A program made the position numbers and the translations under genes. Positions 9,590-52,009 of a stretch of 64,000 nt of DNA are shown piece after piece. Source of the DNA: Cerrena zonata (lineage: Eukaryota > Basidiomycota > Agaricomycetes > Polyporales > Cerrenaceae); NCBI GenBank assembly GCA_038087015.1, contig JASBNA010000077.1, forward strand, positions 124,001-188,000. Reading direction: 5' to 3'. How positions within the stretch are numbered: position 1 is the stretch's first letter; each line of letters opens with the position of its first letter. The notes under the pieces were generated by a model. That model was not told where the DNA came from. It saw only the letters and a program-made list of their open reading frames with translations, and ran no database searches.

Positions 9590-11342
9590 ATGGGGAGAAT
9601 CTGCAACTACAGGAACCCAGATTCATCGCGTAATGAACGGCGAGATCGACCTAAGGAAAGAAGCTATTAAAGGCTACGACAGCGATCGAGTACTAGGGAA
9701 GATAGCGAACGCACCTGATCAATACCCAGCCTTTCAGAAGGCCAAAGACAGTGCTTTGTTCACTAAGAACCTATCTGGCCGACAAGTCCTGTGCATCCCA
9801 CACGTCAGGATTGGACAACGGTTCCTGACGGAACTGGTAGTGGAACAAGCCCACCAGACTTTGGGACACCTTGCAGCTCAGAAGACAGAAGAATACGTCC
9901 GACAGTGGTTCTGGTGGCCCAGAATAGGCCTTGAGGTCCGGAAATACTGCGAAAGCTGCGGGACATGCCAGACTACGAAATCTAGCACGGTGTTGCCAAG
10001 AGGGCTACTGCATTCACTACCAATCCCACGCAGACCATGGGGATCGATAGGAATGGATTTCGTAGGCCCGTTCCCTCCAAGTGCGGGCCATGACTACCTC
10101 TGGGTTGTCATATGCCGCCTGACGTCAATGGTACACTTGGTACCCATCACGACAACCACCAAAGCATCACAGCTGGCTTGGTTGTTCACACGAGATATCG
10201 TGCAGCTGCATGGGCTACCCGATTCAATAGTGTCCGACCGGGACTCTAAGTTCACTTCTCACTTCTGGAAGGCAGTACACCGAATTCTCGGCGTAAAACT
10301 ACTGATGTCGACATCCTTCCATCCGCAAACGGATGGAGCATCGGAGCGAGCAATCAAGACGGTCGGACAGATCCTGAGATCAGCTGTATGAGCAGACCAG
10401 AAGGACTGGGTCGACAAACTCCCGATGGTAGAATTCGCAATTAATTCCGCTAGGAGTGCAACAACAGGCTTCGCACCATTCGAACTGAATGGTGCGATGC
10501 CCTGGATAGCATTCCACATCGAGCAGGCCAACGGTCCAAAGGGAGTAGTCGCGTTCACCCAACAGGTGAAAGACAACTTGCTGGCGGCTCACGACGCAAT
10601 CCTTGAATCAAGGGTGTTACAGACGTTTCACGCCAACAGGCATAGACGGAATGAACACCCTGAGGGGGAGGATGAACCGTCGCAGTACACCGTGGGGAAG
10701 AAAGTTTATCTGTCAACCAAGAACTTGAAACTTCCGAAAGGGCGAGCGAAGAAACTGTTGCCAAAGTTTCTAGGACCGTATCAGATCACTAAAGCTCACG
10801 CGGAAGCCTCAGCATACGAACTCGACTTGCCGAAGGAACTCCGAGCGAGAGGAGTGTTCCCCAAATTCCACGCAAGTTTACTGAGGCCCTACATTCCTAA
10901 CGATGAACAACTGTTTCCCCGTCGAGAGCCAAAAGCATTCTATGACTATGGAATGCCTGACGAAGAAGAAACAGTAGTAGAGGACATCGTCGGTCACCAC
11001 TGGAATGGTGACACCGTATCATTCCTAGTAAAATGGGATGTCGGTGACACAACTTGGGAATCACTGGAAACATGTGACCCGTTGGCAGCTCTCGACAGGT
11101 ACCTGGAGTTGATGGGTGTCAAACTAGTACAAGAGCTCCCCAGAAAAGACAAAGTCGAAGGCTCACCACCACGGGTGAACCAGACGACAACCACAACGCC
11201 CACCACGGAATGGACCCCAGCTAATAGGAATAGAGCGACGATCCCAACCAGGAATCACCCCCCACCGGCGAAAGCGGTGGTCGACCCACTGAGGACAAGC
11301 AGTGGGCGGATGGTGAAGCCTAGGAGGAGGGCAGATGAGTGA
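9590..11342 (+). pseudogene. Gypsy pol, integrase with chromodomain
   Basis: The HHCC zinc finger is seen as QAHQTLGHLAAQ...CESCGTCQ. The integrase core follows with the D,D,E residues: GMDFVGPFP (D), SIVSDRDSKF (D) and DGASERAIKTVGQ (E). A TGA at 10389-10391 interrupts the frame just after the core (context GTA TGA GCA, CGA before deamination). Reading resumes with FAINSARSATTGFAPFELN and the GPY/F module (KFLGPYQITKAH). Next comes a C-terminal chromodomain (VVEDIVGHHWNGDTVSFLVKW...TTWESLE), which places the element among chromoviruses, whose chromodomain is thought to guide integration to heterochromatin. The frame ends at TGA 11340-11342. Confidence 0.92.
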
Positions 11343-15641: not shown

Positions 15642-15802
15642 TGCAAGGGGCCGGAAGCCCTTGCCTTATTTGGTGATGGACTTTATTGAACTGTATAGTT
15701 TATGTTTGACGCTCGGTGGCTTACCTTATAAGGTAAGCCACCGCACTTACGAACGATAGCTTTCTTACACTGTATCACTTTATCTATACACCATTCTTGA
15801 CA
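15642..15802 (+). repeat. 3' LTR of the chromovirus
   Basis: The 161-bp segment opens with TGCAAGGGGCC after the polypurine tract and closes with TTCTTGACA, giving TG...CA borders. It contains a TATAAGG box inside a perfect 30-bp palindrome at 15714-15743. There is no 5' LTR in the window to compare it with, so its outer end is inferred from the terminal dinucleotide and from the start of the WD40 reading frame. Confidence 0.65.
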
Positions 15803-17541
15803 TAGTGTCTAGGTGTGAACCGTGTCATAAGGAAGCGATCTCTTACACCTGGTTGCCAGATGGGAGTTACTTGGCTTCATGTCGATACGGCGACGCTGCC
15901 GTATGGAGAATAAACAAGACAACTCCAACTATGACTTTGGTGGGGAGATTTGATGGAGGTCTCGACTTATGTTTCATGCCAACGGCTCAATCACGTCTAC
16001 TACTCGTCTCCCATGCAGGAGTCTCATTGTACGATTTCAGGTCTAGTGAACAGGTCTTTGGCCCATACATCGCCAATCTTGGTCCATCAGCCTCCAGGTT
16101 CTGGGAAGCTACATTCTCTCCAGATGGATCGTTGATAGCCGCTTCGTCGAAATATACGATCCAAATCTTCGAGACCGAGTCAGGAAAACCATACCAAGAT
16201 CCTATAATGGCACCTGACGAATTTCATCAAGTTACTTTCCTTCCAGATGGAAAGCACATTGCGGCAATTTGTGGTAGCAGTGTCTACACGTGGGAGTTAT
16301 GTCATGGCTCTCAGGTCTCAGATCAGGAGCGATTTGATCGAGCGAACACGCGCGGCCATTTCGGAGACATCACTTCGATTTCCTTTTCACCAGACGGGAC
16401 CAAGTTCCTATCCTCATCAGAGGACGGTACTGTTCACGTCCGCAGTTCTACTGATTGTATTATCCTGCGAGAATATTGGCCAATGGAGTACCAACACGCC
16501 GTCACGTGTGTAGCATTTAGTGCCGACAACAAGAGTATTTATTTGTCCCTAGATGATGGAACAATTCAAACATCAATGGGGAAGGTGCTCTACAGGCCCA
16601 AGGATTCTGGGGAGATATGGCAGATCTCAAAATTCTATGTACATGCGTCTCTGCTATCCTCCGAAGAACACATCATATTCTCCCCCTTCAAGCTGTCGAA
16701 GGAAGCGTTCGTCATCCGCAGCAGTGGGAACCCTGATCAGGACCCACACAAGATCTGTCTTGATGGGGATGACTTCGTAGTTTCCAACAATGGCCTCCTT
16801 GCTTCCTTTTCAGACGGGTTGGGCAAAGTCACATTCGTAAATCTCGAAGGAGATCATCACCCTCGTTCACTTCTCGCTACGAAATACAACGATTTGCAGT
16901 ATCTTTTCTTCTCTCAAATGGGAGAAGTGCTGGTGTCTCTTGGTAAATATCCTACTTCGTTTCCCCCCCTCTATGGCATTCATGTCTGGGACATCAGGAC
17001 CGCAAGGTGTCTTCGAATTCTCGATCTCGTTAGGGTGTCTGGTAGCATACATTATGCAGCTCTTGATGCCAACTTGCTGGCTCTCAGGCTTGAATCTTGC
17101 ATTATGCTCTATGACATCGAAAATGGAGCACTCGTACATACCTTCAACTTATGGGCCCCCTTGAACTCTACCGCATACATTGATATCCGTGGCTCAAAAT
17201 TGGTATCAGCATCAATGAACCATATCATCATGTGGGATCTTTCTGCGCTCCATATTGTTGGGACAATTCCACATACGGATGCTGCCAATATGCCGTTATC
17301 CATACATTCCTCCATCGCCCCACAGTGGAGTATACAACATGAAAATCATCGACCAACTGGATGGATTCTAGGTTCTAACGGAGAACGATTATTGTGGATT
17401 CCCGATGAGTTACGACGTTATCTGGATCCACCAGGCAGTACACATGTCATCGCGCACAGACAGATAAAGCTGCCAGATTTCATTCCTGACCTGGACTGGT
17501 TGAAGAACTACGAGGGAGTGGGGAGATTTGGCATGGAGTAG
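15803..17541 (+). pseudogene. WD40-repeat protein, 5' end missing
   Basis: An open frame of about 578 codons runs from the LTR border to TAG at 17539-17541 with no ATG at its start; the first in-frame ATG is about 15930. WD-like repeats are visible throughout: ISYTWLPDGSYLASC..., ATFSPDGSLIAAS, VTFLPDGKHIAAI, ISFSPDGTKFLSSSEDGTV, VAFSADNKSIYLSLDDGT, then degenerate blades up to WILGSNGERLLWIPDELR. In Agaricomycetes such repeats often form the C-terminal half of NACHT-type STAND proteins, and the lost 5' exons may have encoded that part (inference). The LTR directly in front suggests insertion into the gene followed by loss of the other side. It could still be expressed from the LTR. Confidence 0.72.
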
Positions 17542-25614: not shown

Positions 25615-28600
25615 CTAGTTCTCGTTTTCCGATGCATTTCCACTCCCTGATGGACTTTGAGGGACTTCGCTCAGCCTCTTCCTAGCGAAAGAAACACCCC
25701 AGCTACTTGCAAGACTCGCCAATCGACTCCTCGCAGTCACACCTGTAGGTAGGCTAGGACCAGGTGGCGAACCAGCAGCTGATCCGGATGCCTTCATCGA
25801 GCTATTAGTATCGATCTCAGGAGTGGTCTTGGAAGTGGGAAATGCAGCGGCCAGCGGGGAGTTCCTTATGATCGAATGAGAAGTTGTACGACTCCTTCTA
25901 TGTTGAGATTTCTGAGCAAGAATGTTGGAAAGATTGGTCATCCCCTCCGTTGGTGAACTTTCAGGTGATGGATTGATTGACGAGCCACTTAGCCGATTCT
26001 GGATCTTTCGAGGCGAAGGCTTTGACGGCGGAGACGTGCCCGGAGACCCTGGAGTGAGTTGTTGTTCACCCACAGCCAGAGCAGCTGTAGCCGTCGGTTT
26101 TGCAATAGAAGGGGCAGCGGGCGCAAATGGTACACGATTGGAAAAGCGTGAGGAAGAGCTCTGTTTCGACGCACGTGAACCAGGTCTCAGGGTGACGGTA
26201 CTTGGACCACTTCCAGAACCCGTACCCTGCGTTCCAATTTGAGGCGTCGAAGGAGCCGTACTTCTGATAGGAGACGGTGGAGGTTGCAATAGATGAGAGC
26301 TAGTATTGCTATCTCTGGCGCCTAAAGGAAGAGGTATTTGTGGAATGATGTCTAGAGGCGATTGAACGACGCCAGCAGCGGACTCGGACGAAAGAGAGCC
26401 ATCTGCTTGCGCTAGGAGCCTAGATAATGAAGAGGGGCCTGCAGTAGGAATGGAATTAGTTCTAGTCGGTGATGGAAATAAACGGCCGTTCAAAGGGTGA
26501 GTCACGGTGAACGAGTCTTCTACTTCAGGTTCTGGAGGAGCTGGAGGAGTAGAGAGTGCTCCATCTGCAGGTGGAGAAATTCCTGTACCTGGGCCCGAGG
26601 GAGGGGTAGTGGGGGGAGATGTGGAAAGTATGCCTTCGGTCTCGAGGGTGCCTTGTCGCCGGTTTGATGACGAAACAATTCCCGTACGTCGTTTAGAAGA
26701 ATGATGATGGTGCGAGCTAGAATTGTGGGATTGCGTCCAGTCTTCTACCTCGAGCATATAATACTTGACGCCATCACCTAGGCCGTACGGGTTTGTACTG
26801 ACATCCTGAGAACACAATGTCAGTGAAATGACGAAATATAGATAACGATAGAGTAAGAAAAACTTACTCTGACATCGACCACACGTTCAGTGATGGAGGT
26901 TATTCTTGCAACAACCCATTCCCTCGTTTTCAGTTGTTCAGCGAGATGTCCAGTGGCCTGAAGGAAATAGTGTGGGAACGACACTAAAGCAAAATGAAAG
27001 AGGGAAATCCTCGGACCATCAGCGCTCCGACGTGTATAATCCGGCCACTAAAGTCTACCCACCATTAAACGCAGCCCAAGGTTTCGAAACAGAGTTTCTT
27101 GTAGGAAGGAACAGCGCAAGGTCACCCTTGGCAAAGTTCCTGAACGAAATCTTCCCTTTAGCGCGCTCGCGATATTCCTTGCATTGTTTCTGCCATTTTC
27201 GAATCGTAGACCCTGTTTTCTGAATCGCCTCAAGGAATTGATCATGGTCAAATGTCCGTAAAATCTCCAAGGCGGCCGCTGGATCAGAGGGGTCGATAGG
27301 TAATGGCTCATCGAGATGATTAGTTACCCCTCGTCGTAAGGCGCTGAAGGAGGACTCGGAAAGACTTGCACTAACCGCTGCATTCTTCGAAGAACCAGGG
27401 TGTACCGTCATTGCCTGAGCGGCTGCAAGGGCCTTGACGTGAGACTCTCGGAACCTTAGTGCGACATCCAGAATCTGAGCAATGAGCCGGTTGCTATTTT
27501 CGAGCTGGAGCTCGAAATCAGACTGGGATACCCTTCCCTCTCGCAAGTCTTCTCGCAAGACCCGCTCAACGTGCCGTGCCTCACGTACTTCATGCTCCAC
27601 CCGTTGAAGTTCCTCCCGAAGACCCATAGCATCCGAGTTGGCCATCTCAACTTGGGCTCGCGCATCTTTTAGTTGACGTTCGGTATTTTCCAATGCCGCC
27701 TGTAGCTCCAGATACTGATGCTCAAGGACAGCACGGTCACCGTCAGCCTCAGCGATGTGATCTCGAAGAAGACGATCATGTTCTGAAGCTTGGGCACGAA
27801 GTAGCCTATCCTTGTCTTTACTGGCCTCTGACAAAGCTTGCTGCAGTTCATCACTTTCCTTGCGAGCTTGTTGGATTTGGGATTCCAGATCCTCGCCGCG
27901 AGATCGGGCTTCTTCTAATCGCCGGAGCGCACGTGCCTGTTCTTCCAAGAGATTGGCAACGTTTGAAGCATTTCGAGATTCTAGCGATTTGACCTCCTCA
28001 AACTCTGCTCGGGCCTGAGTAAGTTCTTGACGGAGGGCCTCAGCAGTTTTAGTTTGGCCAGTAGCCTCTGCTAAGGCAGTGGCTAGATCGTTTCGTTGTT
28101 TGGTAGCCTCGGAAGTTAGTTCGTTGTTTCGAGCCTCTAAGATACGTCGCGAAGTGGTTTCGCTTTCCAGATGAGCTTTGAGACTGTGTATGTCCCGTTC
28201 CAAAGCAGTCCGGGCAGTATCAGACTCTGTCAACTGACTTCGTAGTTGAGCGAGTTCCTGCTCAAGCGCACGGCGTTCTCTTTGATGGGCTGCATCTTGT
28301 TCAGCCTTTGCATGCTTTAGTTCTGCTATATGAGCTTCTAATTCGGTGTATGCTTGTTCGTCCGCCTCGGTATCTATAGAGATGACCGCAGTATGAAATC
28401 AACCGAAAAGGTTGTCAGCATGTATCTTCTCGGGGTAGAACTATATCGACATACGTCGTCTGCGTGAATTGACCCACCGCGAACTCGACAGCACTAGTAA
28501 AGTTAATGGTTAGCCTAATATCGTAGGAGTCTGCTTAATCGGAATAACTTACGTGAACGTTCTGCAATTCTATCAAACCCAGACTCAAGACTGTCCATTT

Positions 28601-31067: not shown

Positions 31068-33784
31068 ATGGCTAGTGGTCTAATAAAACGCAAAGCCAAG
31101 ACTTCGGCGACGTCTCGAAAGAAGATAAAAACAGGGCATCTAAATGCGAACGAGTTATCTTGGAAAACTGTTTCCACATCCAAGGAGGCTGGAATCACAA
31201 GCGACTTCGACGGGATTTTGGAGCTAGAAGAGGTAGACAATGTCGAGGTTGTATACGAGGAAACAGAAGGAGGGAAGATTGCTAGGTTTCAGGTGCGTCT
31301 ATGCAATTGTACTGAGAGGTTTCGTTCACGGATATAGTATTAGGTTGTGGATAATTCGTCTTCCTCAGAAGATGAAAATGACATTGATCCAACCGCTGAA
31401 AAGGTCGCCTCGAGTTCTTCACTATCCGTGACATCTACCGCAGAACTCTTACGTAGTTCACAAAATGAAGAATTGTCATTTGATTGTACGTTGAGTATTA
31501 TAACGAATGTAAAATACCCTAGACACGATACTCAATTTCTAACAGCCAAAAGTCTTTTATCCGAATGGCACCCATTTGACCTCCACCCTCGCCTTCTTCG
31601 CACCTTGTACGCACAACGGTTTATCAATCCTACGCCCATTCAAGCGGAAGCTCTGCCCACTGCGTTGAAAGGCAAGGATGTTGTCGGTGTCGCAGAAACC
31701 GGTTCTGGAAAAACACTCGCATATGGCTTACCAATTCTGGACTCGCTTTTGAAAACTTCGTCCTCTCGGTCTACAGACACAAAACAGAAGCGATCCACCC
31801 GTGCTCTTATTCTCACTCCTACTCGTGAGCTCGCTTTCCAAGTTTCAACGCACCTGAACGCGTGCCTGCAAGATGTGGAAATCGTTGACCCGGCGGTGAA
31901 GTCTGAACAGGACGATTCCATCGTCTCGGCTATCCCATCCGAAAGCAAAGGAAGCAAGAATAGCAAAACGCAAAAGGGGAAGAGGAAACAAGTTTCTAAA
32001 ACATCTTCATTAAAACCTAAAGGACCTCCTCCAGTCAGTGTTGCTGCAATAGTTGGCGGTATGTCCGCGCAGAAACAGAGGAGAATATTAGATCGAGGGG
32101 TTGATGTACTTGTTGCGACACCGGGACGGCTGTGGGATATTTTACAACAGGCAAGAAATTGTGCAATTCTTTTTCACCCATCCTGATTGTATTCTACAGG
32201 ATGACGACTTGGCTAGCCAAATCAAGAATCTCAGATTCTTGGTTCTCGACGAAGCAGATCGTATGATCGAAACGGGTCATTTTGCTGAGCTTGATAATAT
32301 TCTTCGACTCACAATGAGAACAGCGAAGTAAGATGGCTCATCTCACTACTTACTATGCGAAGTGGAGGCTAACAACTCTATAGAGACGAAGCGATCGAGT
32401 CAGAAGAATCAGAAACAGAGGAACCAGAAACGTCAACGAACGGAGACACCTCGTCGGACATGCAAACATTTGTCTTCTCCGCCACCCTGAGCAAAGACCT
32501 CCAAAAGAACTTGAAGAAACGACAACGGTGGCATGGGAAGAAAAAGCGCAAACCAGCTTCAACACTCGATGACTTGGTCATGAAACTTGACTTCCGGGAC
32601 CCCGAACCAACGGTCATCGACCTTAGCCCTGAGGGTGGTGTTGTCTCCACCCTCAGAGAAAGCAAAATTGACTGTCTGGGGAACGACAAGGACGCGTACC
32701 TATATTATTTCCTCTTGCGTTACCCTGGTCGATCTCTCGTCTTCCTTTCTTCTATCGACGGGATTCGTCGATTACTTCCCCTTATGGAACTGCTCGAGGT
32801 CAAGGCCTTCCCTTTGCACTCCCAACTTGAACAACGTCAACGACTAAAGAATCTTGATCGGTTCAAAAACACACCTAACTCTGTACTCTTGGCCACCGAC
32901 ATCGCTGCTCGTGGTTTGGATATACCTTCGGTTGATCATGTTGTGCATTACCAGGTCCCTCGTACTGCAGATGCGTATGTTCATCGGAATGGCCGTACAG
33001 CCCGAGCGATGAGGGACGGGTTCAGTATGTTGATGTGCGCCCCCGACGAGCGGCGGATCGTGAGGGCCCTTCTGAATAGCCTTGGGAGAAGTGAGTTCCA
33101 TTCAACATTACCTCATCTTCTACGATATCTTTCCACTTGCTAACTAAGTATGCAGATGAGGAAGAAATCCCTGAAATGACTGCTGAGCTATATATGCTTG
33201 ATAAACTGAAGGCGCGCATTCAGCTTGCCCGTCAAATTGACACTGCCCAGCATAAAGTCAAGAAAGAGAATCACGAAAAGCATTGGTTACGTGAAGCCGC
33301 TGAGGCAATGGAGATCGAGATTGATTCCGATATGGGATTAAGGTAGATCTCACTATGTATGTTCCTTTCCCCCGTTAAAGCTTGTTTTACCCTCTAGCGA
33401 TGACGATGATGACTCGAAAGCGGTACCTACAAAACACCAAAAGAAGACCGCAAATGCTAAGACTGCAGTCTTGAAAGCGGAACTCAAAGACCTTCTTGCT
33501 CAACCGTTGATCGCTCGCGGTGTCTCGACACGTTATATCACCTCTGGTAGTAGGTCGATTGTCGACGATGTCATGGCCGGTCAATGTATGTCTCATTTCC
33601 ATATCATTTATGCTATCGTCTTTGACTCAAAACGATCACTTTAGATCACGAAAGCATGCTTGGTCTGAAGAAAACGCAGGCGGGAACTGACTTAGCGGCT
33701 CCTAAGAAAAAGCCCAAACCGAAGACAAAGAAAGAGGAGTTTGAGGAATGGCACGGTATTGAATCCCAGGAGAACATCATTTAA
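31068..33784 (+). CDS. MAK5: DEAD-box ATP-dependent RNA helicase, MAK5/DDX24 type
   Basis: Nucleolar helicase needed for 60S ribosomal subunit assembly. Exons: 31068-31292, 31344-32150 (probably with a 58-bp intron near 31488-31545, giving [13 protein letters not shown]), 32200-32327, 32384-33090, 33156-33342, 33398-33590 and 33645-33784. Motifs in order: Q motif region [10 protein letters not shown], Walker [37 protein letters not shown] box [13 protein letters not shown] ([11 protein letters not shown]), then [27 protein letters not shown] and HRNGRTARA. The insert between PTREL and GG and the C-terminal [16 protein letters not shown] are typical of Mak5. The intron at 32151-32199 begins with GC instead of GT. 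Stop TAA at 33782-33784. No disruption. Confidence 0.93.
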
Positions 33785-45986: not shown

Positions 45987-45995
45987 GACGGCTGA

Positions 45996-46224
45996 CAGGC
46001 TCCTTACCACCCCACTTCGCGTCGTCGTTCAACTATGTCTCAGTTCGAATATAAAGATACATACACATATAGCTGAGATTGAAATTGAAGGCCCGATTGA
46101 TGTACTCACCTAAGATTGAAGCGCCGATGATTTAATATTAAATCTCAGTAACCTTATTGCGTTGAAGACGACGCGAAGCGGGCTGGCACAAAACGTCCAG
46201 CGCTCGATTAGCTAATATGCTCGC
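45996..46224 (+). repeat. Left terminal inverted repeat
   Basis: It pairs with 51758-52000. It contains two oppositely oriented copies of a motif (CTTCGCGTCGTCGTTCAAC from 46015 and GTTGAAGACGACGCGAAG at 46161-46178), so each terminus is itself a small nested inverted repeat, a plausible recognition site. The inner edge includes AATATGCTCGC, which supplies the start codon of the DUF6589 ORF. Confidence 0.85.
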
Positions 46225-49118
46225 GTGTCCTAATTGGGTATTGTCGATGCAGTGGCAGAGTCGGATTCATGTCATTGCACGAGGGAGACGCGACGCGTTC
46301 ACTTCGATCGCGTTGTGTTTAATGATCGGACTGAAGTCGTCCATTAACACTAGTATGAGAATGCACCAACATCAAACTTCTATCATCATGCGTGACGTCG
46401 TGAGAGCCGTTCTTTCCGCCCTCAATGGCCACTCTCTCACCTCAATTCTCGGAGTTCTACTAACTGACTCTTACTTTGCACAGTCGCCTACCCGCCAACT
46501 CTTTATTCAAGAATGGCATGACTTACTTATCTTCTCACAGGAGCTTCCTGAACTCTTAGAGGAAACTACCTCATTCTGTGTTAATGTACACACTCGCATC
46601 CTCACGAGCGAAATCACCTCTCTTGCTGCCAAAGAGAACGGCTGGCATTTCAGTGCCAAGAATGCCAGAGCTGAGCAGATCGAAGCATTCTCGCTCGCTG
46701 AAATGAGTCGTACCCTTGAGACAAAGGCTCCCCATACTTGGCTCCTCCTTGGTGCCCTCCTACAAAGTGATCAGGCTCGTTTGCGAAAGCGAATGCGATC
46801 ACTAGGTATGGAGTCTATGGACTTGGCACCGGATCCCGTACCTGTGGATCCCACAGTCGATGACATCGGAGGGCCCGGCTTTGATGACGAAGACGAAGAG
46901 GGTTATTGGGAAGTCTTCAAGGACGTTCCCAATGACATTCTTACTGCAGATCAAAGTAACGCACCTCGTCCCAAGAAGCGACAACGGCGTGCAGGTGAAC
47001 GACTTATAGCTTTGGGACGTATTGTAAGCACCGTTCCTTATGTTCTGCTCTGAGTTGTATGCTTACTGTGTTCTAGAGACGCGTTGTTCTTATGTCCATT
47101 CTGTTGCAGAGTACGAACCAAAAATGTAATGCATTTGCCGCTACAATTGGATTATTCCTTCATTCCACATCTACACCTGAGTTGGTGATTGAGGTCTTCG
47201 CGCATGCAGGGCTCTCAATTTCACTTTCTGCTATCCACACCATGATCGACTCATTGTCTACAACATCCGGCGAGCGTTTACAAGAACTTATGAAGACTTA
47301 TGTTGCTTGTTTCGCCTGGGACAACTTCGACATTGATCTAAGATCATGGCTCCCCACTGTAGAAAGGCCGGGGACCACACTTCAACATGGAACATCAGCT
47401 CTCGCTTTTCCGCTTGCCCATGGCGTTACCTCGGAACATCTCAAATGTGCGGCAGAGCTCTGGGCCACTGACCCACTTAACCCTAATATTCCTCCCTCGC
47501 AACATCGCCCAAAACGGACCTGGGTTGACTGTCTCCCTCGTCCTATACCCAACTACACTACTGTCTCTGAAGTCCCGTCATTCTATCGCATCCTGGCCTG
47601 GCATTTCCGACGTGTCCTTGTCGAGCATTGTGCAGAATTCAAACATTTTCGAAAGCAACTTGGCGCACCTGAAACTATGATGCAAATACCAGTAGAGAAG
47701 ACTACACATATACCATGTCGTGCCATGGATATCAACTCATCTACGGCTGATGGACAGGCCCAGATTGCTGAGAGCTTATTCTCGCAGTCTAACTTGGGTG
47801 ACCCCACGGACACTCCAGGTGTTGTCGACATTCGAGAACATGTCGTTCTCGTTCATGGAGACCTAGGTACTGGCGAACGCTTGCAGTCAGTAAAGGAATC
47901 TCGTGCCATTGAGACGAAGCCTGTCCGCCGTCTGGAAATGGTCATCTTTATCCCAGGACTTTTCCACTTGCTGATGGCTTGTGCCGATGCTATCTGGAAG
48001 ATGTATTTTGAACCCCAGGATTTACGTGCAACTGATGATGGTCTGTTTCGGCAGAGTTGTAAGATTCGACCGAACGAGTCAGGCCGTCTTGGTAGCAAAC
48101 CGGGATTTCGCCTCATGCACGATCTTATACATCACCATGGCACTGCGCGTATGCTTGATGTTTGGCAGAATGATCTCAAGAAGCGAACATCACATAACTC
48201 TTTTGCAGAATACGCTGCTTCGAAACCAACCTGGGATGAAGTTACAGCAAGATCTCTTGATCTCGTTCAAACGTATGTCAATAAGCCTCAGCACAAGGAC
48301 GGTCTGTTCCGTAACAACTCTCTTATACTCCTCAATCTTCTAAATTACATCGAGCTTGCACATGCAATGAAGCATGGAGATATTGGACGGGTAGAAGGAA
48401 CTTTCTTACACTGGATTTTTGTGTTCAAGACAGTCGGTAAACATAAGTATGCCACAGCTTTGATCAAGGTTATGAATGACCTCAAATATACATACTCTGA
48501 GGAACTTGCGTAAGTCATTTAAATTTCATACAATGAGATTCAGTGTCCTAACTTAATTACTGCAGACGTGCAATTCGGCTCAACTGGCTATGTAACCCAA
48601 CAGGAAAAGCCGATGGCTTTCGAGCAATAGACTGGTTAGTTGAGCTAATGAATCTATATATCAAGGTACGTCTGGGGCAGAATTTTATAATGTTTTATTA
48701 CTGACATCTACGTTGAACTGTGAAGGTCATTTATAGTGGTGTTGGATATACCAGGACCTTCCAACTTATAATCAAACAGTCCCCGCTTATAGATATATTC
48801 AGACGTGTGCATACACTGATGCAAGATAACTTTCATCTTCTGCACCGAAGTGTCCGCCATGCTCCTCCCAACTTACAAAATACACTCACAGTCTTACAAC
48901 ATCTGCTTGAGGAAAGCAAGGCTCATGAGGTTCATTTGGGGCGTAAAGCATACAAATTGATGGATCATTTGAGGGAAGGGATGCGGATGTTACAACAACG
49001 GTCAGGTATTTATGTAGACGAGCAGGAGACAGATATATCACTTCAAGAAAGTGATACGGGAGAGGAGACACTTGACTTCGATGATCTCGATTTCTGTGGA
49101 GAGGAAATAGACATTTAG
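46217..49118 (+). CDS. DUF6589 protein, candidate transposase
   Basis: Exons 46217-47023, 47077-48509, 48566-48665 and 48726-49118 join without phase error into 910 codons. The N-terminal 300 residues are helical, with an acidic patch and basic cluster (PRPKKRQRRAGER). The DUF6589 core carries VLVHGDLGTGERLQSVKESR, then MVIFIPGLFHLLMACADAIW, GSKPGFRLMHDLIHHHG and RVEGTFLHWIFVFKTVGKHK. Invariant-looking Asp (HGD), Asp (CAD) and Glu (VEG) in alternating hydrophobic settings recall an RNase-H-like fold, inferred not proven. The start codon lies in the terminal inverted repeat; a later ATG near 46387 (MRDVVRAVLSAL) is an alternative. It converges on the helicase gene, stops 131 bp apart. Biochemical function is unknown to me. 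Confidence 0.85.
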
Positions 49119-49249
49119 CTAATATACATAATGTCTGTTTGTAACGTGCTGGAAAAAAGCTCACCTTACTCGGTTTGCCGAAGTGGGCAGTTCCGACTGT
49201 TTCCTAGGTGAGGTGTGAGTGTATTGATCGAGACGATCAAGACGATCGG

Positions 49250-51716
49250 TTACACAAACATGAAAAACATACTCTTGTGGCCCACACCTCTACAAAGGCT
49301 ACATCTCGGCGGTGCCCTTGTCGATGATTGCTGACTTTCACCATTAGATTGAAGCCGGGAAACCAGGGGTGTATGAACAAACGGTGACGATGAAGGTTGA
49401 GTGATAGTCTTGGGGCAGTACTTCTCAACGAAACCCAAGATAACTGGTGCATACCTCTCCCCTTGCTGCCATCGCACCTGCTCAACGACATCCTTGACTG
49501 AAGATAGCTTCTGCATGTGAGCTAGATCGACAATCCTATCCACAAAAGAAAAGTGCATAAACATGTCAGCACCATACATCTGTTCTGCCTCGAAACCATG
49601 CTCCATCAACATCATCTCCTTTCGCCAACCATGAAGAGCCTTGGCGAGTGCATTTTCAGCAGAGGATCGAGTAAACTCATCCACCTTTACCCTATTGGGA
49701 GCTCTCTTGAGTTTCGTTGGAATATCGGTACGCTCTGTCATGAGATCTGCGGTTTCTTGAGGCTTACAGACGTCACAACAAAGTGTTGCTTGTTTGGTTT
49801 CGCAACGGTCACAGCAGCGAGTAGTAATGGCAGCTGGGTGGTAATGATTAGTTATGATAAATCCGAAGATATAACAAAACACGTACAAATGCTGGTGTTG
49901 GCATAGAATGAGTTAGCATGAAAGCGTCGACAGTGTTTCACACCTGATAGGACATGTGCATTGATGAAGAGACACAGTGTCTCATCAACATCGGCATCAG
50001 GCTTGTGGGAGCGATTCCCACTAGCTCGCTTACTCTTGCCTTGAGGCGCGGATGTCTTCTGTCTACCACCGCTCTCAACCAGGTTGAAGAGCTCACGTAG
50101 CTTATCTTCCCGGTCAATGACTCTGGATTCTTCGTCTCTTTCTACACCTGCAGATACTTGCTGAATGCTCTCCATGCTCAAGTCAGGCTCGTTCCGATTT
50201 CCCTCTGTATCTTCTGTGTCAACGTCTCGCATGGGCTGACGTTCGGAAAGTGGGGTGCGTGGGGTATGTAGTGGTTGATGAGAAGGTGTTAATGGAAGGG
50301 ATGTTATAGTTCTATCACCAAGAGTGTGTGTAGCTGACACCGATGCTACTGTTGATGAGTTATTTGGTGGGTTATTTTCTTTTCTAGTTCGCTTGGCTCC
50401 TCGACTCTCGCTCTCTTCAGTCTCCCCTAACTTCCGCTTCCGGCTGGCCTGTTGGGCAAGCTTATCCTCATAGAACCAACTGGATTCTGCAATAAGTATA
50501 CCGATGCCTTGGAGAGCTGGGTTTCGTACAGCACGGCCAAACCGTTGCATTAGTGTATTGAAATCCTTCGGGACTCGCCACTGGACTACAATGATGATGT
50601 CCGCAATATCCAGTCCCTGCAAATCACAGTAATTAATTGTATTTCATGGTTCATAATAGCATCTCTCACCATTCCACCAGAATCAGTTGCTGCAAATCCC
50701 CAGGTATCCCCCGCCTTGAGGTTTTCTACCTCATCTGCACGAAAGAACCGTGTCATACCTGCATGAAACCATGGCACTTTTTGCTGCAAATCTGCGCTAA
50801 CACGAGACCTTAGAAACTTTGCAGCCTCCTCCGCCTCCTTCTTACTATCGAAGAACACCATGAACTTCTTCGGAGTAGGATCACCGACTTTCCAGTTCTT
50901 TGGCACCAAGAAGCCGAGATCTTCGAAGGTTGACATCGTATACTTCATGGGCCGGACGGCGTAAAGTATATTTGGGCGATCATTTGATCGTTTGAATAAC
51001 GTGTAGCTTGATTTGTTCCAGGTGAATCTGCGCTCAAGAACAGTGATCATATCGGGTGGTATAGTGGCTGAAGAGATATATATGGGGACTTTAGGTAAGT
51101 GCCACTGTATGTCATGCACCTTCCCATACTCTCCGCGGAACGAATCCCCCCATTGCACAATGCAATGTCCCTCATCAAAAATAAGGTTTTGGACCTTCGA
51201 CTGGAAGCGTGCGTTAGGCCACAGTATTGTCTGGCAATACCCGCCCCGCTTCATAAGTATTTCTGGGCTTAGAATAACCACACGGTATTTTCGCTGGGCG
51301 ATGTCCTGTTTATATTGACTTCAATAAAGTCCTTGTCTATTAATTCCGAGTGGTAAACTCACTTTGAAAGTCCGTTCATTATTGTTATCTGCATTTACAG
51401 AAATGGCAGTGAATCCTGCTTTTGATGATTCTGCAACAAACTGATCCCCGAGAACATTGAGGGCAGTTGCAATGATGATAACAGAGTCCGGGCAGAAGGG
51501 AAGGGTCATTAAGTAAGATAGAGTCTTGCCAGAACCGGTTGCTGCAATACTGATGATATTCTTCTGCTGGAGCTGGGCACGACATAGCTTGATTTGAAAG
51601 TCGCAAGGTCGTTTCCCAAAGACCTCAAGGGTTTTCGCACGTATTTCTTCATCTGAAAGTAACATCGGTATGGAGGAAGACATATTGTATGGAACGCGTC
51701 TGCTAGTCGCGTCCAT
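49250..51716 (-). CDS. RecQ-like DNA helicase of the 6-kb element
   Basis: Superfamily 2, 3'-5' RecQ-like. Exons 51716-51363, 51305-50670, 50616-49887 and 49833-49250 add up to exactly 768 codons. Motifs: IAATGSGKT (Walker A), NVLGDQFVAE, FDEGHCIVQWGDSF (DEGH in place of DEAH plus the RecQ aromatic loop), YISSATIP, FFDSKKEAEEAAKF, FAATDSGGMGLDIADI and LMQRFGRAVRNPA (motif VI). After a disordered basic stretch comes a Cys-rich cluster (CCDRCETKQATLCCDVC) and then a tail with CSLCRGVGHKS. No HRDC domain is evident. The ATG at 51716 (MDATSRRVPYNMSSS) is taken. Similar helicases are repeated in Agaricomycete genomes. Here it sits inside a transposon, so replication- or repair-coupled movement is plausible (inference). 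Confidence 0.88.
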
Positions 51717-51757
51717 CAGGTGATGGAAAAAATGAAGAAACAACCAAATCTGGGCGT

Positions 51758-52000
51758 GCGAGCATATTAGCTAATCGAGCGCTGGACGTTTTGTGCCAGC
51801 CCGCTTCGCGTCGTCTTCAACGCAATAAGGTTACTGAGATTAAACATAAATTTTCGGCGCTCTAAATATGAGGTGATGAGATTGAATCGGACTTAGAATT
51901 TCAACTGCAGCTGAGTGTCCAAGTTATATTACTAGTATATGATAGGTTTAAATCGAGACACAGTTGAACGACGACGCGAAGTGGGGTGGTTTGGAGCCTG
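51758..52000 (-). repeat. Right terminal inverted repeat
   Basis: Reverse complement of the left repeat. Inner 84 bp (51758-51841) identical, outer 46 bp (51955-52000) nearly so. It has the same nested motif pair (51804-51821 and 51963-51981). Its inner edge also ends in ATGCTCGC on the minus strand, 36 bp or so upstream of the helicase start codon, so both genes read inward from the same sequence. Confidence 0.85.
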
Positions 52001-52009
52001 GACGGCTGA

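Follow-up and report, generated by a model that had tools for sequence, protein, structure and literature searches.

A complete DNA transposon of Cerrena zonata with a DUF6589 gene and a RecQ-family helicase gene, most likely of the AcademH lineage

A stretch of 64,000 nucleotides of the Cerrena zonata genome (the window; C77:124001-188000 of the assembly searched, 55.5 Mb in 171 contigs) contains a DUF6589 gene and a gene for a RecQ-like helicase enclosed by long inverted repeats. The locus raises the question of whether these genes form a mobile element, which of them would move it, and to what kind of transposon such an element belongs. We find that the element, 6,005 bp long (window positions 45996-52000), is a real, complete DNA transposon. 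With a probability of roughly 0.8, we read it as a cut-and-paste element, most likely of the AcademH lineage, with DUF6589 as its DDE transposase and the RecQ-family helicase as partner.

Boundaries of the element and its copies in the genome

The element starts CAGGCTCC, finishes GGAGCCTG and has GACGGCTGA on either flank. Its arms, of 229 and 243 bp, pair at 80% (93% in the outer 46-bp block), and the longest exact match between them is 84 bp (46141-46224 against 51758-51841). A first-pass annotation of this DNA had placed the ends at 45996 and 52000 between identical 9-bp flanks, with inverted repeats of about 230 bp and an identical 84-bp core, and all of these are present in the sequence as it had described. 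Its further claim that the transposon is intact is borne out by five other elements that have the same ends and other flush 9-bp duplications (Table 1), so that six intact-ended elements, on the window contig, C31, C4, C46, C48 and C12, carry six different duplications. When the left 254 bp served as query, a single further pair of ends was matched besides both window arms, that of C31. The elements of C4 and C46 are 6,309 bp each and 22 mismatches apart, and that of C12 is of the same family, an otherwise complete 6.3-kb copy with a 2.6-kb insert (197838-200401; apparent 2-bp GT duplication); terminal inverted repeats measure 341 bp in C4, 341 bp in C46 and 296 bp in C48, at 99%. That C4, C46 and C12 hold almost the same copy at separate sites, each with a duplication of its own, shows that both genes move together and, as fewer than half a percent of the bases differ among these three copies, recent movement is suggested. 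The C31 copy appears to derive by internal deletion, as it retains the start of the helicase gene and the start of the DUF6589 gene, which abut at 424468-424470. Within it, beside the helicase start, lies an 11.6-kb KDZ-type element (C31:412231-423879; PF18758, in pieces) with 420-bp inverted repeats at 98.6%.

The annotation had also proposed looking for copies with different 9-bp duplications and for empty sites. The copies exist, five of them; for the joined flanks of three elements (window, C48 and C4) the assembly yielded their own loci and no empty site, the C48 flanks having in addition matched five places that share a repeat situated entirely on the left side of the junction, and one place over 64 bp on its right side.

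Several loci were kept out of the six or are less complete. The C1 locus has GGTGATAGG on both sides but a weak left end. At C4:2114087-2120491, AGTGTGAGC flanks the element on either side and the left end is complete; the right repeat is without its outer ~117 bp, through either a deletion that stops exactly at the duplication or the use of an internal end. C37 has a right end only, and in the stretches read C3, C110, C65 and C5 have an end on one side only, the copies of C3, C110 and C65 being ~97% alike with their genes back to back; the flanks read at C14 contained no ends. At C62:129853-137642, inverted repeats of 908 bp (99.4%) with different end letters surround a distant DUF6589-helicase pair, and no target duplication was found around them. 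Outer flanks were read at the DUF6589 loci except C10, C26 and C80. A query with the inner 158 bp of a C46 end retrieved six ends, those of C4, C12 and C46, and nothing else; it missed the related C4:2114 and C37 elements and is thus uninformative on diverged or non-autonomous copies. We also note a 10.2-kb near-perfect palindrome (C5:2022041-2032279, 99.3%) with two back-to-back DUF6589-helicase units, which is either an inverted duplication or an assembly artefact.

Two genes that move together, diverge together and are under purifying selection

The spliced DUF6589 gene encodes 853 amino acids, not the 910 codons first annotated, and the protein matches the deposited Cerrena zonata protein QCA50_018928 from end to end at 100% identity. 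It matches PF20231 (DUF6589) with an E value of 6.8e-97, and its predicted structure is DDE-like, with putative catalytic residues D294, D474 and D647. The model thus supports a DDE fold and makes DUF6589 the likely transposase of the element, as the first-pass annotation had supposed in having it supply transposition. No animal relatives of DUF6589 appeared among the named matches of three protein searches, many matches being unnamed metagenome proteins; the named ones all come from fungi that we take to be Agaricomycetes.

The helicase gene lies on the minus strand (51716-49250), tail to tail with the DUF6589 gene, and its 767 codons, in four exons, agree with the count first given. DEAD and Helicase_C domains are above the Pfam cut-off, and no domains beyond these and DUF6589 were found in the two proteins. 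The superfamily 2 (SF2) core motifs GSGKT, DEGH, SAT and GRAVR are all present, cysteine pairs lie beyond the helicase core, and the solved structures closest by sequence are WRN (E 2e-22), followed by RecQ and BLM. By these motifs and this closest relationship, the predicted protein belongs to the RecQ family.

The pairing of the two genes recurs across the genome, in keeping with the earlier proposal that the helicase is an element-encoded partner; whether the two are repeatedly paired was a question that the first-pass annotation had raised. The DUF6589 search returned 38 rows representing 19 loci (a split gene at C26:84-98 kb counted once), 17 of which have a RecQ-like helicase within 5 kb, at C26:137 kb only as pieces. 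Within the flanks readable there, no helicase was found beside the C26:177 kb gene or beside the split C26 gene, the latter (C26:84119-98264) being 38-80% identical to the window's gene in pieces and interrupted by ~11.6 kb near codon 571. Twelve pairs share the tail-to-tail arrangement of the window pair and five are back to back (C3, C110, C65 and both halves of the C5 palindrome). Conversely, a helicase search gave 18 rows, 15 at DUF6589 loci, two (C80) near weak DUF6589 remnants detected by tblastn only, and one (C28) with no DUF6589 beside it; the C28 helicase is a 1,262-amino-acid open frame and may be the host gene. With distant helicase queries, 12 of 29 rows and 1 of 3 rows had no adjoining DUF6589, so solitary helicase pieces do exist.

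The distance matrices of the two proteins are closely correlated over 10 pairs (r 0.968; none of 20,000 permutations was as high, p 5e-5), a test from which the near-identical C12, C46 and C110 pairs and the C10 protein (no helicase stretch aligned) were excluded. Among six diverged pairs, the proportion of synonymous differences (pS) is 0.69-0.90, near saturation, and that of non-synonymous differences (pN) 0.14-0.38 in both genes, over best-matching stretches only. Low pN at near-saturated pS indicates that purifying selection has kept both genes working over the long run. Between C3 and C110 the ratio of non-synonymous to synonymous rates (dN/dS) is 0.46 for DUF6589 and 0.09 for the helicase, and between C3 and C65 it is 0.60 and 0.28; in these three copies the decay of DUF6589 may have set in.

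Inverted motif pairs at the ends and a possible mechanism

In 17 ends, the outer 60 bp were sought inverted further inward, against 200 shuffles. A motif of ~26 bp, 12-14 bp from the tip, recurs inverted at 120-210 bp in 11 of 11 CAGGCTCC-type ends, with a score above all 200 shuffles; these ends come from the window, C31, C4, C46, C4:2114, C37 and C48 and represent three sequence families, not independent cases. The letters of the motif vary by family (CCACCCCACTTCGCGTCGTC in the window element, CCAGGCTCTCTGTCTCGAGG in C4, CCACCCTCACAATCGCTCGAGG in C48) while the inner copy always finishes GGCTGG. TAG-type ends (C110, C65, C3, C5 and two of C1) passed once in six (C5). A folding test of their outer ~90 bases, devised after this result, gave a close CCAG..CTGG hairpin in five of six, the left end of C1 having none, and an energy below all shuffles in two of five. 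We found no description of paired family-specific end motifs in the literature searched, in which no search was aimed at ends in particular.

We read the motif pairs as putative transposase sites that would co-evolve with their transposase. We propose that DUF6589 would recognise both terminal regions, each through its pair of inverted ~26-bp motifs, and cut at CAGGCTCC/GGAGCCTG; the ends would then be joined to the target with a 9-bp stagger, the repair of which would make the 9-bp duplication. The RecQ-family helicase may act on the motif pairs as hairpins, opening the duplex at the palindromic ends, or it may act in end processing or in repair of the staggered cut; our data do not choose among these. 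A more far-reaching version, which we put forward as a tentative and rather unlikely idea, is that of a helicase-dependent DDE system, in which the motif pairs would be able to extrude as hairpins and would diverge together with the transposase (outer CCA and inner GGCTGG remaining constant), the RecQ helicase would work on the hairpins and strand unwinding at the ends would be required; DUF6589 would then mark a large group of Agaricomycetes transposases that has so far been misfiled and that may form a superfamily apart from animal Academ.

Elsewhere in the window there are a Plavaka transposase fragment (PF18759; 3624-5483), matches to Integrase, to SH3_Tf2-1 and, weakly, to a chromodomain, spread over two frames as in a long terminal repeat retrotransposon (9591-11342), and host-like genes for a WD40 protein (15760-17541), an ATG11-like protein (27055-28398) and a DEAD-box helicase (31344-33143).

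Table 1. Parts of the window element (window positions) and the five other elements with intact ends (contig positions)
Feature	Position	Strand	Remarks
Left 9-bp target duplication	45987..45995	none	GACGGCTGA
Left terminal inverted repeat	45996..46224	+	outer 46 bp, diverged middle, exact 84-bp core
Outer copy of subterminal motif	46007..46033	+	CCACCCC..TTCAAC; element positions 12-38
Inner inverted copy of subterminal motif	46161..46186	-	GTTGAAG..GGCTGG; element positions 166-191
DUF6589 gene	46388..49119	+	4 exons (46388-47023, 47077-48509, 48566-48665, 48726-49119); 853 aa; likely DDE transposase (D294, D474, D647)
RecQ-family helicase gene	49250..51716	-	4 exons; 767 aa
Right terminal inverted repeat	51758..52000	-	inner motif 51796-51821, outer motif 51963-51989
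Right 9-bp target duplication	52001..52009	none	GACGGCTGA
C31 element	411947-425649		same ends as window element; 9-bp duplication GGTTTCGGC
C4 element	1663724-1670032		both ends; 9-bp duplication CCTCTTCTC
C46 element	107184-113492		both ends; 9-bp duplication GGGGACAGA
C48 element	177768-184414		both ends; 9-bp duplication AAATTAGCC
C12 element	192924-201798		both ends; 9-bp duplication GAGTACAAG

Placement among known transposons

It could be argued that the element is non-autonomous, moved by a transposase encoded elsewhere, with the DUF6589 and helicase genes as mere passengers. We think this very improbable: purifying selection maintains the two genes side by side even in lineages between which the DUF6589 proteins share only ~40% or 25% similarity, the structure predicted for DUF6589 is that of a DDE transposase, and C31, the only copy to have lost the central part of the two genes, seems to have arisen by deletion. 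Mutator-like elements, the comparison drawn in the first-pass annotation, typically have 9-bp duplications together with long inverted repeats, and the 9 bp are confirmed in six elements, but neither element protein contains a MULE domain in Pfam at E <= 0.01. Mutator was rejected on this ground, the closest described kind is AcademH, and a Mutator-like element now has hardly any claim on the data. Kolobok elements duplicate TTAA, whereas the six elements here have 9-bp duplications of varied sequence, by which Kolobok was likewise rejected. KolobokH, a Kolobok type so far known from fungi alone and equipped with a RecQ helicase, does resemble the window element as a fungal DDE transposon with such a helicase, and in one red-algal Kolobok the RecQ helicase is on the complementary strand, as here (PMC9587614, in excerpt); in KolobokH, however, the helicase follows downstream after the transposase domain, whereas the window element has separate genes on opposite strands, and we find this assignment barely credible.

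A separate DNA-transposon superfamily outside Academ, with its own DDE lineage and an independently gained RecQ helicase and 9-bp stagger, is unlikely. In its favour, DUF6589 is unmentioned in the literature searched (PF20231 has one match there, by its title an optics paper and surely a chance hit), the DUF6589 protein has no CxxC pair, whereas Academ proteins may carry a cysteine-rich finger, and the window element was set beside AcademH by descriptions only. Against it, three traits coincide with AcademH: the RecQ-type helicase, the 9-10-bp duplication and the low number of copies in Basidiomycota (PMC10799480, in excerpt).

With this element Pfam DUF6589, until now a family of unknown function, gains a concrete, testable role, and DUF6589 and many RecQ-like genes in the Cerrena zonata genome prove to belong to transposons rather than to the repair machinery of the host. 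Published genome descriptions in which they are listed as host genes would need correction; Academs, indeed, are frequently annotated as host genes (PMC6416283, in excerpt). As near-identical copies suggest recent movement, the part of a helicase in DDE transposition is also open to study.

In structure, the DUF6589 model comes closest to hAT (Hermes), P element and Transib/RAG1, with 8-12% sequence identity in the alignments; these are DDE transposases and a relative with an insertion inside the catalytic domain. Unlike the window element they are not known to encode a helicase, the window proteins have no Pfam match to their families, and their target duplications are of 8 bp (hAT, P element) and 5 bp (Transib/RAG1). 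MULE, Academ and Kolobok structures are missing from the list of fold matches, which carries no weight against those groups. AcademH is a lineage of the Academ superfamily whose founding paper is reportedly that of Kojima in 2020. In the excerpts cited, AcademH elements have duplications of 9 or 10 bp and encode a helicase (PMC10045372), as do the six intact-ended elements in their 9 bp and the window element in its helicase, and they are present in low copy number in Basidiomycota, Ascomycota and Mucoromycota (PMC10799480); of 1,938 fungal Academ copies, 1,568 have recognizable protein domains, for example DEAD/DEAH helicase and recQ_fam, a helicase type that the window element shares (PMC6416283). 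A DDD/E transposase, here the DUF6589 protein with its DDE-like model, and terminal inverted repeats are further likenesses, whereas the parts of the AcademH descriptions examined contain no link to DUF6589, no paired inverted end motifs and no two gene orders. The DUF6589 protein has no CxxC pair and the helicase protein three. Because the features tested agree with AcademH, the cysteine-rich zinc finger that Academ-encoded proteins may carry being left aside, we file the element, on its described features, as a very probable AcademH member. The first-pass annotation was aware of no described transposon with this pairing, which is right as far as DUF6589 is concerned in the literature searched and not as regards the helicase: RecQ-type helicase domains in fungal Academ are already in print (PMC6416283, in excerpt). 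What this locus adds, with no earlier description found, is DUF6589 as a likely transposase and family-specific motifs paired at the ends.
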